Shown one piece after another: positions 50,434 to 56,853 of a stretch of 58,417 bases of DNA. A program made the position numbers and the translations under genes. The first letter of the stretch is position 1. Each line of letters starts with the position of its first letter. The stretch covers positions 1 to 58,417 of the forward strand of contig CAMDDO010000002.1 of assembly GCA_945892755.1 (NCBI GenBank), given 5' to 3'. The notes beneath the pieces are model-generated. The model was not told the DNA's origin. It searched no databases and saw only the letters and a program-made list of their open reading frames with translations. This DNA comes from Rhizobium sp. Q54. GTDB lineage: Bacteria; Pseudomonadota; Alphaproteobacteria; UBA828.

Positions 50434-51027
50434 CTAGACTCGCTCCGACAACCAGATCGCGAGCCTGGTGCCCGCCTTGATCGCGCGTGTCAGCGGCTGA
50501 TAGGCAGGCGCCAGCTCGGCCTCGTTGGCGATCGCAGTCTCGCGGTGGTGGGCTTCGTCGGCACCATATTCCTCGAGCTTCGCGCGCAGCGTGGCCTCAT
50601 CATCGCCGAGCTGATCGGCCTGGCGCGCATAATGCCCCTCGATGACCTCCTCGACCGCAACCGTGCAGGCCATCGCCGCGCGCTCGCCCATCAGCGCGCT
50701 CGCCGCTCCGAGCGCGAAGCCCGCGACATGCCAGACCGGCGAAAGCAAGGTCGGGCGCACGTGGCGCTCGACCATCAAGCGATTGATTTCATCGAGATGG
50801 CGCACCTCGGCCTCGGCCATGGCGCGGATTATCTCGGCCTTGGGCGAGCGGCCGAGTACGGCGAGTTGGCCCTCATAGATGCGCCGCGCGCCATATTCGC
50901 CGGCCTGATCGACGCGGATCATGCGGGCGACCATCTCCTCAGGGCTAGGATCGCCAGGCAGTCGCCGCTCGCCGGTGACCTGGGGTCGCGCCGCCTTGTT
51001 GGATGCCGGATCTTGAGGCTGATTCAT
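50434..51027 (-). CDS. coq7: Demethoxyubiquinone hydroxylase Coq7
   Basis: The 197-residue di-iron protein performs the last ring hydroxylation in ubiquinone synthesis. Ferritin-like helices show RVDQAGEYGARRIYEGQ, EAEVRHLDEINRLM, AVEEVIEGH and YGADEAHHRETA (iron Glu/His ligands). Start at 51027 (MNQPQDPA) overlaps the dsbB stop (ATGA). Its product feeds the bc1 complex at 3000-5600. The stop lies four bases from the convergent HNH stop. Confidence 0.92.
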   Translation of the reverse strand: MNQPQDPASNKAARPQVTGERRLPGDPSPEEMVARMIRVDQAGEYGARRIYEGQLAVLGRSPKAEIIRAMAEAEVRHLDEINRLMVERHVRPTLLSPVWHVAGFALGAASALMGERAAMACTVAVEEVIEGHYARQADQLGDDEATLRAKLEEYGADEAHHRETAIANEAELAPAYQPLTRAIKAGTRLAIWLSERV

Positions 51028-51566
51028 CGCACGCGCTTTCTCGAGTCGCACAAGGCAAGCACTGCAGCATAGAGCGCGGCGAGGCCCAGCACCACGCCGA
51101 GGATGCCGTTCCAGCCCGCCATCGAGAGGCCGAGGAGCGTCCACGGCACGTCATCGCAACGCGCGAGTGGTGCATTCAGAATGCGCTGGCGTAATTCCTC
51201 GATCGAGCCGGCGCCGCCGCCTGCGCCGGCGCATGCCGAACGGAAATAACCGGCCTCGACGCCAACATGAAAAGCCGCATAGCCCGCGCCGGTCAGATAG
51301 GCAGTCGCGATCGCGGCGAGCAGCCCGGTCATCAGCCATGGCACGCGCTGACCAAAAAGAAGCGCGACAAGCCCAAGACCGAGCACGGCAAAATGCGGAT
51401 AACGTTGCGCCACGCAGAGCGGGCATGGCTCAAGCCCGCCGACATGCTGGAAGAGATAGACGGTCAGTAGCAGCGCCGCGCTGACGACAAGGAAAAGTGC
51501 CGGCGCAAAGCGCGGCACGAGAGCGCGATAAGTCTCCCTCACCATCATGCGTCTCGGTCCGTTCAT
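51024..51566 (-). CDS. dsbB: Disulfide bond formation protein B
   Basis: The 180-residue inner-membrane protein reoxidises DsbA and passes electrons to quinone. Four helices are visible, with the periplasmic Cys pairs CPLC (in GLEPCPLCVAQR) and SACAG/LARCDDVPW. Start at 51566 follows GGAG; ATGs at 51548 and 51545 are alternatives. It is in operon with coq7, consistent with its use of ubiquinone. Confidence 0.9.
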   Translation of the reverse strand: MNGPRRMMVRETYRALVPRFAPALFLVVSAALLLTVYLFQHVGGLEPCPLCVAQRYPHFAVLGLGLVALLFGQRVPWLMTGLLAAIATAYLTGAGYAAFHVGVEAGYFRSACAGAGGGAGSIEELRQRILNAPLARCDDVPWTLLGLSMAGWNGILGVVLGLAALYAAVLALCDSRKRVR

Positions 51567-51574
51567 CGCTCCGC

Positions 51575-52373
51575 TCACTTGTGCCGCGGGCGTTGGCGAC
51601 GCAATGACCATAGCGCAAAGGCGGCCAAGGCAAGCGCCGCCAGGCTGGCGCCAAACAAGAACGTCGCTTGCGCCCCGTCAAATGACCAAAGCACGCCGGC
51701 GATCGCGCCTGCCGGCAAGGCGGTGAAGCCAACCACCAGATGATAGGCGCCAAAGGCCGTGCCACGCCGATCGGGCGGCGCGAGATCGGCGACAATGGCC
51801 GGCATCAAACCCTGTGTCATGCCAAGATGAATGCCCCACAGTATCGCCGCAAGATAGAGGTGCCAGGCCTCGCTCGCCACGGCGAGCGCGAGATAGGCCG
51901 CGATCAGCGCCACGAAGCCGGCATAGATGAGTTGACCGCGCCCGCGTCCCTTGGTGTGGCGCCGAGCGTATGCCCTTGCCGATGCGATCGACGAAGCGCG
52001 CCGCCATGACCCAGGCGAGGCTCGCCGCCGGCGCGAAAAACGGCTTGGCGCAGGTCGCGATGCCATAGCCGATGAGGGCCAGCGTCTTGCGCCGGCCGAT
52101 CACGTCGCTAAGCCAGCCCGAGCCGATTTTAGTCAAAGCGGCGGTCGCTTCCGCCATGCCCGAGACCAGACCGACCGAGACCGCGCCAAGACCCAAGACC
52201 GAGACCAGAAAGACCGGCATGAGCGATTCGATCATCTCGGTCGAAACGTCCATCAACAGGCTGACCAGTCCGAGCACCCAAATCGACGTCGGCAAGCCGG
52301 CAAGCGTGCGCTTCGTACTTGCCTTGTCGGATGGATTTCCCTTAGGCGACAGGCTCGGATCGTTTGCGCTCAT
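51575..52373 (-). pseudogene. MFS transporter remnant with internal deletion and frameshift
   Basis: The 5' part (from 52373) encodes helices 1-4 with MFS signature SGWLSDVIGRRKTLALIGYG and DRIGKGIRSAP. Near 51945-51965 the frame jumps: the downstream half continues in another frame as QLIYAGFVALI ... LWGIHLGMTQGLMPAIVADLAPPDRRGTAFGAYHLVVG, which is the later half of the same family. The central helices are missing, and total coding length is about 266 codons versus 400 or more for the family. So it is not a simple sequencing frameshift but a deletion. It sits directly upstream of dsbB. Confidence 0.8.
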
Positions 52374-52711: not shown

Positions 52712-52779
52712 TCGGCCGCATCGTTCGACCTGCCCCTAGCCCGGGTGGCGGAATGGTAGACGCACCGGACTCAAAATCC
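52712..52779 (+). repeat. Left direct repeat: tRNA-Leu 5' half plus upstream flank
   Basis: This matches 54475-54543 apart from a 2-nt gap, a 1-nt insertion and one substitution. The tRNA part 52739-52779 (41 nt) is identical in both, ending in the 3' anticodon stem. The two copies lie about 1.76 kb apart. Confidence 0.85.
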
Positions 52780-52826
52780 CGTTCCCCCTAAGGGCAGTGT
52801 GAATTTGAGCCTCCCCGCCCGCACCA
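52739..52826 (+). pseudogene. Degenerate tRNA-Leu(CAA) copy
   Basis: The first 41 bases equal the intact tRNA-Leu at 54503, then the sequence diverges: the anticodon stem is left with a mismatch, the variable arm reads CCCCTAAGGG, and the T-arm is lost. Weak resemblance continues to a final GCACCA at 52821-52826, giving almost the right total length, but only about four of seven acceptor pairs can form. It is therefore not a working tRNA. Confidence 0.7.
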
Positions 52827-52903
52827 TCGGCCAGAGGAGTCTGAAGGGCTTCCGATTTCCGGCCTCCCATTCTTGTCGTTCATCGAAGGAAGCCTTCCGT
52901 ACT

Positions 52904-52925
52904 ACTGCTTTGTGCCAGAAGCAGT
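52904..52925 (+). repeat. Hairpin ACTGCTT / AAGCAGT (possible dispersed repeat fragment)
   Basis: ACTGCTT (52904-52910) pairs with AAGCAGT (52919-52925); loop TGTGCCAG. The sequence around it (GCTTCTGGCACAAAGC on the minus strand) resembles a motif widely repeated in alphaproteobacterial intergenic DNA. The remainder of 52827-53076 has no gene; it is relatively AT-rich near 53010-53060. Confidence 0.4.
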
Positions 52926-53076
52926 CATCGGATCGTTCAGCCCAAAGATTGTTCGCGAAACCCGGCACTCGGTATCTGTTTGGCTGCCGCCATCCAGCTT
53001 TCCGACATTCCAGAAAGATGATCAAGATGATAGCATTTGGTAAACTTGGGGAATGACTAGTCAATAGGGGTAGCGG

Positions 53077-53427
53077 ATGCCCGAATTTTCGCTGAAAGTG
53101 TTCGAACGGCCGGATGAGGTTCGCGAATTTCCGTTTGGACGGTTTGAGATCATCCATATTGCCGGCATCACGTTGGGGCGTGCCACCTATCAGCCTGGAT
53201 GGAAGTGGTCCGTCCACAATGCCCCATCCGCCGGAACCAAGCTTTGCCACGCGCCGCACACTGGCACCGTGCTCTCGGGCCATGGCGCCATCCAATATGA
53301 GGATGGGCGGCACCTCGATCTGCTGCCGGGCGCGGTATTTCACATTACGACGACCCCACATGACAGCTGGGTGGTCGGCGACATACCGTATGTTTCCCTG
53401 CATGTCTTGAAGCCGCCTACTCATTGA
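53077..53427 (+). CDS. Cupin-fold protein
   Basis: The 116-residue protein is a single cupin barrel: HAPHTGTVLSGHGAIQYEDG is motif 1 and LLPGAVFHITTTPHDSW is motif 2, with His at metal-ligand positions. The start codon follows GGGGTAGCGG. It is 26 nt before the cysteine-synthase-like gene and probably co-transcribed. Substrate or sensing role is unknown. Confidence 0.8.
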   Translation: MPEFSLKVFERPDEVREFPFGRFEIIHIAGITLGRATYQPGWKWSVHNAPSAGTKLCHAPHTGTVLSGHGAIQYEDGRHLDLLPGAVFHITTTPHDSWVVGDIPYVSLHVLKPPTH

Positions 53428-53453
53428 TTTGACTATTGAATTTTGGTTCCACA

Positions 53454-54389
53454 GTGCCTGACCAGAAACATATCCTCGATGCGATCGGCAATACGCCCCT
53501 CGTCGAGTTGCGACGCATCGTTCCAAAAGGCAGCGGACGAGTTTTCGCCAAACTCGAATCCGCCAATCCCACCGGCAGCATGAAAGACCGGCTTGCACGA
53601 ACCCTCATCGAGCGCGCCGCCGCAGCGGGTTTCCTTCCCCCAGGCGGCACGGTGGTCGAGTACACGGCCGGCACCACCGGCATATCCTTGGCCTTCGTCG
53701 CGCGCGCACTTGGCTACAAGACGCATTTCGCCTTCTCGGACGCTTTCAGCGACGAGAAACGCCGGACGATGCGGGCCTATGGCGCCGAGATCACCGATGT
53801 GCCAAGCGACAATAAGAAGATCACCAAGGAGCTGATCCAGGCGATGATCGCCAAGGCTGGCGAAATCAGTCGACGGCCCGGCCACTGGTGGGCCGATCAA
53901 CTGAAAAATGAGGACGGTGCGGCGGGTTATTTCGGGCTGGGCGAGGAAGTATGGCGTCAGACGGACGGCAAGATCGACGCGTTGGTGCACACCGTCAGCA
54001 CCGCGCATTCGATCCACGGAATGAGCAGGGCTCTCAAGCGCGAGAAGCGCGATCTTCTGGTCTTCGCCGTGGAGCCAGAGGAATCGGCCGTGCTGTCGGG
54101 TAAGCCGCCGGGCTCCCATAAGATCGAAGGCATCGGACTCGGCTTCTTGCCGCCGCTATGGAAACCAGATGAAGTCAGCGAAGTCCTCACCGTCTCGACC
54201 GACGAGGCCAAGGCGATGGCGCGGCGTCTCGCCCGGGAGGAGGCGATCTTCGCCGGTACCTCAACGGGCGCCAACATCGTGGCGGCACTCAGGGTGGCTG
54301 AGCGGCTTGGCGCCGGTGCGACCGTCGTCACCCTCATTGTCGATTCCGGCTTGCGCTATCTCAGCACGGATGTCTTTGGCGAGCCATGA
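53454..54389 (+). CDS. PLP-dependent cysteine-synthase-like enzyme
   Basis: The 311-residue fold-type II PLP enzyme has AIGNTPLVELRRI, the PLP lysine in NPTGSMKDR, and the phosphate-loop GTSTGANIVAAL. The substrate loop is TAGTTGIS, where classical O-acetylserine sulfhydrylase has TSGNTG, so substrate preference may differ. GTG at 53454 is the best start by homology; a TTG at 53436 is possible and neither has a strong ribosome site. With the cupin it forms the cargo of the tRNA-bounded segment. Confidence 0.82.
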   Translation: MPDQKHILDAIGNTPLVELRRIVPKGSGRVFAKLESANPTGSMKDRLARTLIERAAAAGFLPPGGTVVEYTAGTTGISLAFVARALGYKTHFAFSDAFSDEKRRTMRAYGAEITDVPSDNKKITKELIQAMIAKAGEISRRPGHWWADQLKNEDGAAGYFGLGEEVWRQTDGKIDALVHTVSTAHSIHGMSRALKREKRDLLVFAVEPEESAVLSGKPPGSHKIEGIGLGFLPPLWKPDEVSEVLTVSTDEAKAMARRLAREEAIFAGTSTGANIVAALRVAERLGAGATVVTLIVDSGLRYLSTDVFGEP

Positions 54390-54474
54390 CCCGCCCACTC
54401 ATTCGTGGTCACGATCGCTAATGCGACTCGAGCGCATCTCGCGGCGATTGCACACGCGGCGCACCTCGCTATGA

Positions 54475-54543
54475 TCGGCGCCGCATCGCTCGACCTGCCC
54501 TAGCCCGGGTGGCGGAATGGTAGACGCACCGGACTCAAAATCC
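54475..54543 (+). repeat. Right direct repeat: tRNA-Leu 5' half plus upstream flank
   Basis: Second copy of the repeat at 52712-52779; it covers the upstream flank and first 41 bases of the intact tRNA-Leu. Confidence 0.85.
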
Positions 54544-54588
54544 GGCGGTGGCAACACCGTGCGAGTTCAAGTCTCGCCCCGGGCACCA
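54503..54588 (+). tRNA. tRNA-Leu(CAA)
   Basis: A complete type II tRNA with encoded CCA. Acceptor GCCCGGG pairs with CCCGGGC; the anticodon stem CCGGA/TCCGG holds loop CTCAAAA with anticodon CAA; a long variable arm CGGTGGCAACACCG and T-stem GCGAG/CTCGC with TTCAAGT loop follow. Discriminator is A at 54585 and CCA at 54586-54588. Confidence 0.95.
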
Positions 54589-54628: not shown

Positions 54629-55102
54629 TCAGGTGCGCCATTCCGGCAGGCGGTTCGGGCTGTTCAGTTTGAGGAACAAATCGATCTTGCTGAAGCGCCA
54701 TTGGCCGCGCTCCTTGCGGAAATTCGAATCATACCAGCCGCCGATCCAGGTCGATTCCGGTTCGGCTCCGGGCTTGGGCCGAAATTTTGCGAGCTCCCAC
54801 AAATAATAGTGCGCCTTGGCGGTTTTGCCGTTGGCCGCAACCTTGACGACCGGCTGGGTCATGTAATGCAGCGCCCACGGAATTTTCACCGTGGACGTTT
54901 CGCGCACGCCTTTGACCACCGCGGCGCGCCCCACCCATTTGCCAATGCCCTTTGATTGCCAAACGACATCGGCCGTGAAGCATGGCGTCAACATTTTGGG
55001 GTCGCCATTGTGATCGACCGCGTCGGCATAGGCCGCGATCACGGCGCGGATTGCCTCCTGGTCTTCGAGCCGCTGCAGCCGCTTGAGAACGTCATCCGCC
55101 AT
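54629..55102 (-). CDS. SnoaL/NTF2-like protein
   Basis: The 157-residue cytosolic protein has an NTF2-fold pattern: a helical start LQRLEDQEAIRAVIAAYADAVDHNG, then strands with CFTADVVWQSKGIGKWVGRAAV, HYMTQPVV and a conserved late ESTWIGGWYDSNFRKERGQWRFSKI. Such SnoaL_4-type proteins are hydrolase/isomerase-like or binding proteins; substrate not known. Begins immediately beyond the tRNA-Leu. Confidence 0.82.
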   Translation of the reverse strand: MADDVLKRLQRLEDQEAIRAVIAAYADAVDHNGDPKMLTPCFTADVVWQSKGIGKWVGRAAVVKGVRETSTVKIPWALHYMTQPVVKVAANGKTAKAHYYLWELAKFRPKPGAEPESTWIGGWYDSNFRKERGQWRFSKIDLFLKLNSPNRLPEWRT

Positions 55103-55142
55103 CGTTCAATCCCTCCTCTTGGTTGGCCGTTGCAACGCCACA

Positions 55143-56024
55143 CTATCCCAAGGCCGGCCGGCTCGGCCAGCGCCATAGGCCGGAAAGCGCATTGCCGAAC
55201 ACGGCGAGCAAGACAAGCGCCGCACCCGCGAGTGTCAGGCCGACGGGTGTTTCGTCGGCGCCAATCCAGACCCAGAGCACGCCGCCGACCGGCTCGATCA
55301 ACATGATCAAACTGAGCGGCGCCGCCGACAAATGCCGACTGGCGACAGTGAACAAGATCAGCCCGCCACCGAGTTGGACGGCGCCGAAGGCCAGAAGAAA
55401 CGGCAAGTCCTCCGCGTTGATTTCGAAGGGCAGCCCGAACGGCAACGATATGATTCCGGCGATCAGCGTCGCGAGCAACGCGGCCGGCATCATGTCGTGC
55501 GAGCGTGCGCGCCGCATCATCACGATATATGCCGCGAACACCGCCGCGAGCGAAAGCGCGAGCAGATTACCCAAGAGGGCGCCGCCGCCGATCGATTGCG
55601 CTACGATCAACACGATACCGGCGAACGCGAGGCTCATGCCAAGCCAGGTGGCGAGCGCGATGCGCTCGCGCATCAACACCCAGCTGAGCACGGCGGTCAA
55701 AAATGGCGTGACGCCGAGGCAAGCGACGACGTTGGCCACCTGCGTGACGTCCAGCGCCAGACAAAAAGCGGTCAGCGAATAGGCCATCGCGACGGCGGCG
55801 AGCACGCCCCCGATCCCGACCGTGCGGAGCGCGGCAAGCGTGCGCCCGCGATGTTGCGCGAGCACGAAAACGCCGATCGTGAGTGCCGCGAACACGCAAC
55901 GCCAGAACACGATCTCCCACGCGTCGAGCTCGATCCGACGCATGAGCAGCCCCGCCGTCGAAAAGCACAGCGCCGAGGCGACAGCGCATGAGATGCCGAG
56001 TTTGTAGTGCTGCGGAGCGGACAT
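55143..56024 (-). CDS. EamA/DMT-family transporter
   Basis: The 293-residue inner-membrane protein has about ten hydrophobic helices in two EamA repeats (about 10-140 and 155-285). Typical segments: FWRCVFAALTIGVFVLA and AAPLSLIMLIEPVGGVLWVWI with the family Pro in helix 9. It likely exports a metabolite or amino acid. Located 40 nt upstream of the SnoaL-like gene on the same strand. Confidence 0.88.
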   Translation of the reverse strand: MSAPQHYKLGISCAVASALCFSTAGLLMRRIELDAWEIVFWRCVFAALTIGVFVLAQHRGRTLAALRTVGIGGVLAAVAMAYSLTAFCLALDVTQVANVVACLGVTPFLTAVLSWVLMRERIALATWLGMSLAFAGIVLIVAQSIGGGALLGNLLALSLAAVFAAYIVMMRRARSHDMMPAALLATLIAGIISLPFGLPFEINAEDLPFLLAFGAVQLGGGLILFTVASRHLSAAPLSLIMLIEPVGGVLWVWIGADETPVGLTLAGAALVLLAVFGNALSGLWRWPSRPALG

Positions 56025-56145
56025 TGGTCTCGGCCTAGAACGCGGAGCGCCAAGCCTGATCAGCCGCCGAGCGCCGCGTCAAGCGCGGGCTGGGGCAGTC
56101 GGTCACGTCAACCCGCTCGTTGGGACGGCCGCGGTCCGTGCCAAA

Positions 56146-56853
56146 CTAGTCGTCGTCCCGGTCAGGCGCGGCAAGCATGCGCAAACGGTCGAGATCGAGG
56201 ACACGAACACTACGACCCTTACGCGCGAGAATGTCGCCCTTCATGAGCTGAGACAGCACGCGCGCGACCGTTTCGCGTGAGGTGCTGGCGCGCCGCGCCA
56301 GCTCGCGCTGGGTCGGCACCGGATTGATGACATAGCCTCCGGCTTCGCTTGGCTGATCGGGGATCAACCGCATCACTTCGACATAGACCCGCTGAACCGC
56401 CTTCAACGTGCTCAGATCCATGATGCGCTCGTCGGCGGTACGAACAATATGGGTGAGCCGCCGCAACACGTGCAGCGCGATCGTGGGATGCTCCGTCAAC
56501 ATTCCAGTGAAGACGTCCGGCGGCATGGCCGCGACCAGACTTGGCTGAGAGGTCACCACATTGGCCGAACGGCGCCGGCCGTCGATCGCGGCGAGCTCGC
56601 CGAAATAGCCGCCCGCCCTGACCTCGCCGAAGGCCACTTCGCGGCCCGTGATCGAGTAGTTCACGACTTCGACGGCACCCTCGATCACCATGAAAACGTC
56701 GCGCGAGTCGCTGTCGCGGTCGAGGATCTGCTCATTCGCACCATAGCGCCTGAGCGTGCAGCGACGTTCGAGCAACTGCAGCACCTCGGGCGCGAGGTTG
56801 CGAAGCAGGCGGATACCGCCAAGTTTTCCGGCCGATGTTTGGCTGTTCGCCAT
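56146..56853 (-). CDS. Crp/Fnr-family transcriptional regulator (Crp-like)
   Basis: The 235-residue protein has an N-terminal cyclic-nucleotide-binding barrel (about residues 15-130) and a C-terminal helix-turn-helix, PTQRELARRASTSRETVARVLSQL. The ligand pocket keeps the Glu, Arg and Ser of the Crp phosphate-binding cassette (FGELAAIDGRRRSANV). Only one Cys (about residue 32) is present, so it cannot hold an Fnr-type [4Fe-4S] cluster. The target genes are unknown. It is divergent from the PAS-array gene. Confidence 0.88.
   Translation of the reverse strand: MANSQTSAGKLGGIRLLRNLAPEVLQLLERRCTLRRYGANEQILDRDSDSRDVFMVIEGAVEVVNYSITGREVAFGEVRAGGYFGELAAIDGRRRSANVVTSQPSLVAAMPPDVFTGMLTEHPTIALHVLRRLTHIVRTADERIMDLSTLKAVQRVYVEVMRLIPDQPSEAGGYVINPVPTQRELARRASTSRETVARVLSQLMKGDILARKGRSVRVLDLDRLRMLAAPDRDDD

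Follow-up and report, generated by a model that had tools for sequence, protein, structure and literature searches.

A probable integrase-less scar at the tRNA-Leu(CAA) locus of Rhizobium sp. Q54, and breaks in the same tRNA in other alphaproteobacteria

Islands in tRNA genes are common. The stretch of the Rhizobium sp. Q54 genome analysed here (58,417 nt, contig CAMDDO010000002.1; hereafter the window) raises the question of how the 5' half of a tRNA-Leu(CAA) gene came to stand upstream of an intact copy, with a small gene-bearing segment between the two. A first-pass annotation of the window considered the end of identity at the anticodon region typical of tRNA-targeted recombination, and named a residual or very small integrative module and a segmental duplication as possible outcomes.

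The direct repeat and its two tRNA copies

Comparison of repeats within the window identified an identical core of 46 nt, at 52734-52779 and 54498-54543, with a spacing of 1764 nt. Upstream of the core a further 21 nt are repeated with one mismatch and a 1-nt offset (52715-52735 and 54480-54500), and the whole repeat, flank included, comes to ∼67–68 nt, which confirms the ∼68-nt direct repeat with 41 nt of tRNA 5' half, and the separation of 1.76 kb, noted in the first-pass annotation. The repeated flanks, which lie at 52715-52738 and 54480-54502 on the forward strand, differ by one mismatch and one 1-nt indel. An exact repeat of 46 nt in 58 kb is far beyond chance. Upstream of the ∼22-nt flank, comparison of the two tRNA copies revealed no similarity above that of shuffled sequences, and a shared promoter 5' of both copies was rejected on this basis.

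The right copy (54503-54588, forward strand) is a full tRNA-Leu(CAA), as previously annotated; it is detected by ARAGORN, scores 61.3 bits with Rfam and is the only tRNA-Leu(CAA) found in the genome, whose other leucine tRNAs have the anticodons TAA, TAG, GAG and CAG. The pattern of the CAA 5' half occurs twice in the genome, both times inside the window. No displaced 3' half was found after the right copy, either in the window or at the corresponding tRNA of a sister genome, G002.

The left copy is of a different nature. Its 5' half (52739-52779, forward strand) is identical to positions 1-41 of the intact tRNA, an identity that takes in the anticodon loop and stops 3 nt into the 3' anticodon stem. 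The remainder (52780-52826, forward strand) is a decayed 3' half of tRNA-Leu(CAA) such as related genera possess, matching the 3' halves of genera g5 and g3 of the family at 36 of 47 positions (none of 500 shuffles was as good) and its own twin, the right copy, at only 27 of 49; genus g5 has the same final 11 nt, CGCCCGCACCA. ARAGORN does not detect the left copy, and in the Rfam tRNA model it scores 21.3 bits, under the 29-bit cut-off. Four of the seven acceptor-stem pairs are formed and three are broken, and pairs of the T-stem are broken as well. By these alignments the left copy is a tRNA pseudogene of full length in which a 5' half of the right copy's type and a 3' half of the family type form a hybrid, and this joining accounts for the poor pairing of its acceptor stem (4/7). 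The description of the left copy as degenerate past the anticodon stem thus holds insofar as the two copies diverge there, but the diverged part is not featureless. The hybrid make-up argues against a simple duplicate that decayed, and a plain segmental duplication, one of the outcomes considered in the first-pass annotation, is disfavoured because it leaves the foreign-type 3' half of the left copy unexplained.

Chromosomal site, enclosed segment and sister locus

To the left of the repeat lie coq7 (PF03232) and a DsbB-like gene (50434-51611, reverse strand), a pair that in Alphaproteobacteria is conserved to the left of tRNA-Leu(CAA); the names DsbB-like here and Crp-like below were given by sequence inspection, without an HMM match. 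A span of ∼2 kb holds coq7, a DsbB-like gene and a single tRNA-Leu(CAA) in the family's genera g3, g4 and g6, and a DsbB-like gene is found upstream of tRNA-Leu(CAA) in 38 of 96 sampled alphaproteobacterial loci, typically ∼800 nt away. In the comparison with relatives that had been suggested as a check, related genera carry one tRNA-Leu(CAA) at the place of the left copy, and it is of another type than the right copy of the window. Judged by gene order, the left copy occupies the ancestral tRNA-Leu(CAA) site behind coq7-dsbB. The genes downstream of the tRNA vary among genera, which fits the expectation for an insertion hotspot.

Two further features of the surroundings were observed. An MFS gene (51678-52373, reverse strand) separates the dsbB-like gene from the left copy; it is frameshifted or deleted compared to the sister genome, with an internal deletion of ∼470 nt relative to it, and is probably a pseudogene. 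On the right, the tRNA is followed by a SnoaL-like gene (PF13577), an EamA transporter gene (PF00892) and a Crp-like regulator gene (54629-56853, reverse strand). The EamA and Crp-like genes also lie 3' of the tRNA in the sister genome; the SnoaL-like gene, which in the window stands between the tRNA and EamA (54629-55102), is on another contig there, and is possibly a second insertion 3' of the tRNA.

The segment between the copies begins with a non-coding stretch of low GC content (52827-53076; GC 0.535 over 52780-53076), and positions 52780-53429 are among the lowest 2.4% of the window's 650-nt stretches in GC. It encodes two open reading frames on the forward strand. The first (53077-53427, 116 aa) is cupin-like by eye only and matched nothing in Pfam or NCBIfam at E≤0.001, and the second (53436-54389) encodes a PLP-dependent enzyme of the cysteine-synthase family (PF00291, E 1.8e-64). 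Among 20 other genomes of the family, no orthologue of the PLP enzyme was matched at E≤1e-95; its best match, from a search of plasmids, is a Deinococcus plasmid protein with 65% identity, and identity in the sampled alphaproteobacteria is at most 55%. No cupin-like gene was found next to homologues of the PLP enzyme. Composition and protein matches together mark the enclosed cargo as foreign DNA. The segment contains no integrase or integrase remnant, and neither of two integrase queries matched within the window, in agreement with the earlier statement that no integrase is present; the segment also has no visible phage genes.

The nearest well-covered relative is the sister genome G002, a MAG of the same genus (record VGET01000001.1), with a tRNA-Leu(CAA) of the same type and 98% identity. 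The two loci are alike in the tRNA type, in the EamA and Crp-like right neighbours and in having an insertion between dsbB/MFS and the tRNA. In G002, however, the insertion measures ∼12 kb (L041:5400-17200, G002:C1) and encodes a response regulator, a phosphate-binding protein, a TonB receptor, CopC/CopD, TonB and a tyrosine integrase (PF00589, Phage_integrase), the last 57 nt upstream of tRNA-Leu(CAA), on its 5' side; in those relatives of this integrase next to which a tRNA was found, it is the 3' side that the integrase adjoins. The TonB receptor has no counterpart in any of the 20 other family genomes. The 5' flank of the tRNA in G002 differs from that in the window, and neither the left tRNA copy nor a native 3' half was found, so that the two loci cannot be matched end to end. 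Since the MFS gene of G002 lacks its 5' part, the left end of the insertion there may have been deleted. By eye, this MFS gene appears to form a fusion with the beginning of a low-molecular-weight phosphatase/ArsC-like gene.

Breaks in tRNA-Leu(CAA) of other alphaproteobacteria

A genome-wide scan for the CAA 5' half in 385 alphaproteobacteria, most of them draft genomes, identified at least two copies in six genomes, and in four of the six, the window's genome counted, an intact gene follows shortly after the half. Across the fetched loci, 138 pattern matches correspond to 132 intact genes and 6 halves, the latter in the window and in G025, G048, G182, G285 and G329. In the five other alphaproteobacteria, the break in tRNA-Leu(CAA) likewise falls at the anticodon loop, and a tRNA-Leu(CAA) that is intact and differs from the broken one stands downstream. 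One of the loci inspected (L199, G054:C48) contained a dense cluster of nine tRNAs that does not look like the stated alphaproteobacterial genome, and this contig is perhaps a contaminant.

The clearest case is G329, in which a complete prophage of 40.5 kb with T7-like genes (L130:4128 to L202:19153, G329:C1:77627-118253) splits the host tRNA-Leu(CAA) at AGACTCAAAATCTG in the anticodon loop. The prophage encodes a primase/helicase, a DNA polymerase, a head-tail adaptor, tail and internal virion proteins, a terminase and an integrase; a complete tRNA-Leu(CAA) of another type follows the integrase at a distance of 38 nt, and 8 nt beyond this tRNA the 3' half of the host gene starts. In G048 (L098:9404-10100, G048:C68) the host 5' half, a foreign intact tRNA-Leu(CAA) and the host 3' half are found in this order within ∼0.65 kb, which is apparently a decayed element whose tRNA took the place of the native one. 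When the host halves of G329 and G048 were joined in silico, both gave a normal tRNA-Leu(CAA) with 7/7 acceptor pairs.

The remaining halves are those of G025, G182 and G285. In G025 (L177, G025:C1, ∼83.8 kb, minus strand) the first nucleotide of the 5' half is 56 nt ahead of the first nucleotide of an intact tRNA-Leu(CAA) of another type. In G182 and G285, which belong to two families (L099:8757-9038 and L100:7920-8203), a half-tRNA-Leu and ∼150 nt of common sequence precede the intact gene; this common stretch includes TTTGTCTACC, which is complementary to the D-arm. The sequence after the half is not tRNA-like in G048, G182 and G285, and of the post-anticodon parts only those of G182 and G285 have anything in common. 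Gene conversion from the intact gene was rejected as the general origin of the halves, because those of G048, G182 and G025 differ from the intact gene in the acceptor stem.

Two known systems invite comparison. In the Islander survey a 5' tDNA fragment was present in 159 of 3919 islands (∼4%), and intervals that are shorter than 2 kb or without an integrase are rejected (PMC4383910). The window resembles these 5'-fragment islands in its 5'-half fragment upstream of the intact copy on the same strand, in the break at the anticodon stem-loop and in the foreign genes between the copies. It differs in that the interval has no integrase and, at 1764 nt, is below 2 kb, and the terms scar or remnant therefore suit it better than island; another difference is that its left copy continues as a tRNA half of another type. 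The second system is tRNA-dependent lysogeny, in which the host tRNA is split and not rebuilt and the element, joined through a short common core, brings a tRNA of the same isotype; it is described for Mycobacterium phage Gaia at tRNA-Leu-CAA (PMC10865867). A search of phages matched tRNA-Leu genes, Gaia's among them, and no viral contig contained the same 5' half. The target tRNA is the same here, and in G002 and G329 an integrase is closely followed by an intact tRNA-Leu(CAA). In G329 and G048 the host tRNA is split with a short common core and left unrebuilt, and the element encodes the same isotype; their layout is that of tRNA-dependent lysogeny. No prophage is present in the window, and its upstream 5' half is of the intact gene's type rather than the native one; with the same 5' half in both copies, it is not a case of a host tRNA split and left unrebuilt.

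Origin of the locus

The arrangement in the window is most likely an integrase-less scar at a tRNA-Leu(CAA) hotspot, left by a mobile element in the anticodon loop and arranged in the rare 5'-fragment configuration. The best explanation, for which we estimate a probability of roughly 0.58, is that an element with its own tRNA-Leu sequence became linked to the resident tRNA at the coq7-dsbB site. Such an element would have carried the tRNA-Leu sequence together with the PLP-enzyme gene and the neighbouring ORF, and crossing over at the resident tRNA's anticodon loop would have left a dead hybrid on the dsbB side and a working tRNA 1.76 kb downstream; the integrase would since have disappeared, or would have acted from another place. 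In the preferred order of events, an element bringing a family-type tRNA-Leu would have generated two mismatched hybrids with 4/7 acceptor pairs each, and the right hybrid would then have been repaired by copying of the left 5' half and ∼22 nt of its flank, giving 7/7 pairs. The action of an integrase at this crossover, the way in which the two copies came by one 5' half and the order of events behind the hybrid are inferences. Counted against integration are the lack of an integrase, a length below the 2-kb floor of Islander and the need for a second step, the copying, and no relative shows an empty right-type site or an intact element. The missing left copy in G002, which prevents an end-to-end match of the two loci of the genus, and the 3'-side position of those relatives of its integrase that were found next to a tRNA also count against it.

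The same products would result if DNA of a related bacterium, with a family-type tRNA-Leu(CAA) and the two genes, had entered by homologous recombination through the stretch from the D-arm to the anticodon loop, with no integrase involved. This route, which we consider rather improbable, would suit the absence of an integrase, the family-type left 3' half and a hybrid junction within the most conserved stretch of the tRNA; yet that junction falls at the anticodon stem-loop, the usual site of integrases, as in five other lineages, the sister genome has an integrase at the same tRNA, and the available homology is short (∼40 nt with mismatches). The G329 and G048 loci suggest another course, in which a prophage tRNA-Leu(CAA) replaced the split native one and later recombination made the hybrid, with only cargo left. 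The succession of integrase and tRNA-Leu(CAA) in G329 (at 38 nt) and G002 (at 57 nt), the order of native 5' half, foreign intact tRNA and native 3' half within ∼0.65 kb in G048, the native-type 3' half near a new-type tRNA in the window and the described case of Gaia at tRNA-Leu-CAA (PMC10865867) all speak for such a fossil of lysogeny. It predicts a leftover native 5' half, however, and the left 5' half of the window is of the new type; nor does a displaced 3' half follow the right copy in the window or G002, or the segment contain visible phage genes. We regard this course as unlikely, including the recombination that it requires of the new tRNA, at its anticodon loop, with the native 3' half that had been displaced.

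An old vertical duplication of the tRNA, in which the left 3' half decayed and the intervening genes arrived later, would account for a left copy that is both full-length and decayed. It is very unlikely, because the 3' half is nearer to the tRNA of other genera (36/47) than to its twin (27/49), from which the 5' half does not differ at all, and because the family-wide pattern scan found the arrangement in no other genome; relatives with both tRNA copies and the same genes had been named beforehand as the sign of such a duplication. That the left half was retained as a regulatory RNA is hardly credible: halves are kept in six lineages and G182 and G285 have common downstream sequence, but the other halves differ after the anticodon loop, halves make up only 6 of the 138 pattern matches in the fetched loci, and no Rfam family was matched above the cut-off. 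A conserved half-tRNA sRNA was rejected since the post-anticodon parts are unlike, G182 and G285 excepted.

Integration at the anticodon loop thus remains the preferred reading, and the tRNA-targeted recombination proposed in the first-pass annotation is well supported by the end of identity at the anticodon stem-loop, the single tRNA in related genera, the PLP gene without a family orthologue, the integrase of the sister genome and the break in five other lineages, which in one of them encloses an entire prophage. The overall interpretation given there is partly supported; the hybrid of two tRNA types, the rare 5'-fragment geometry and the replacement by a foreign intact tRNA elsewhere were not foreseen in it.

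Integration into a tRNA is a known kind of event, and the notable part is its repetition at tRNA-Leu(CAA) across a large bacterial group. Six alphaproteobacterial lineages have such breaks in one tRNA, often at one conserved chromosomal place, and intermediate states are represented by a whole prophage (G329), a 0.65-kb remnant (G048) and single halves. Tentatively, the alphaproteobacterial tRNA-Leu(CAA) may have been cut repeatedly at its anticodon loop by elements bringing a complete tRNA-Leu(CAA), with the foreign tRNA staying as the sole copy once the element decays, and the window may show a replacement caught half-way, in which a native 3' half is still close to the new tRNA. The recurrence of the break and its intermediates make this locus a good place to test permanent replacement of a host tRNA by mobile elements.
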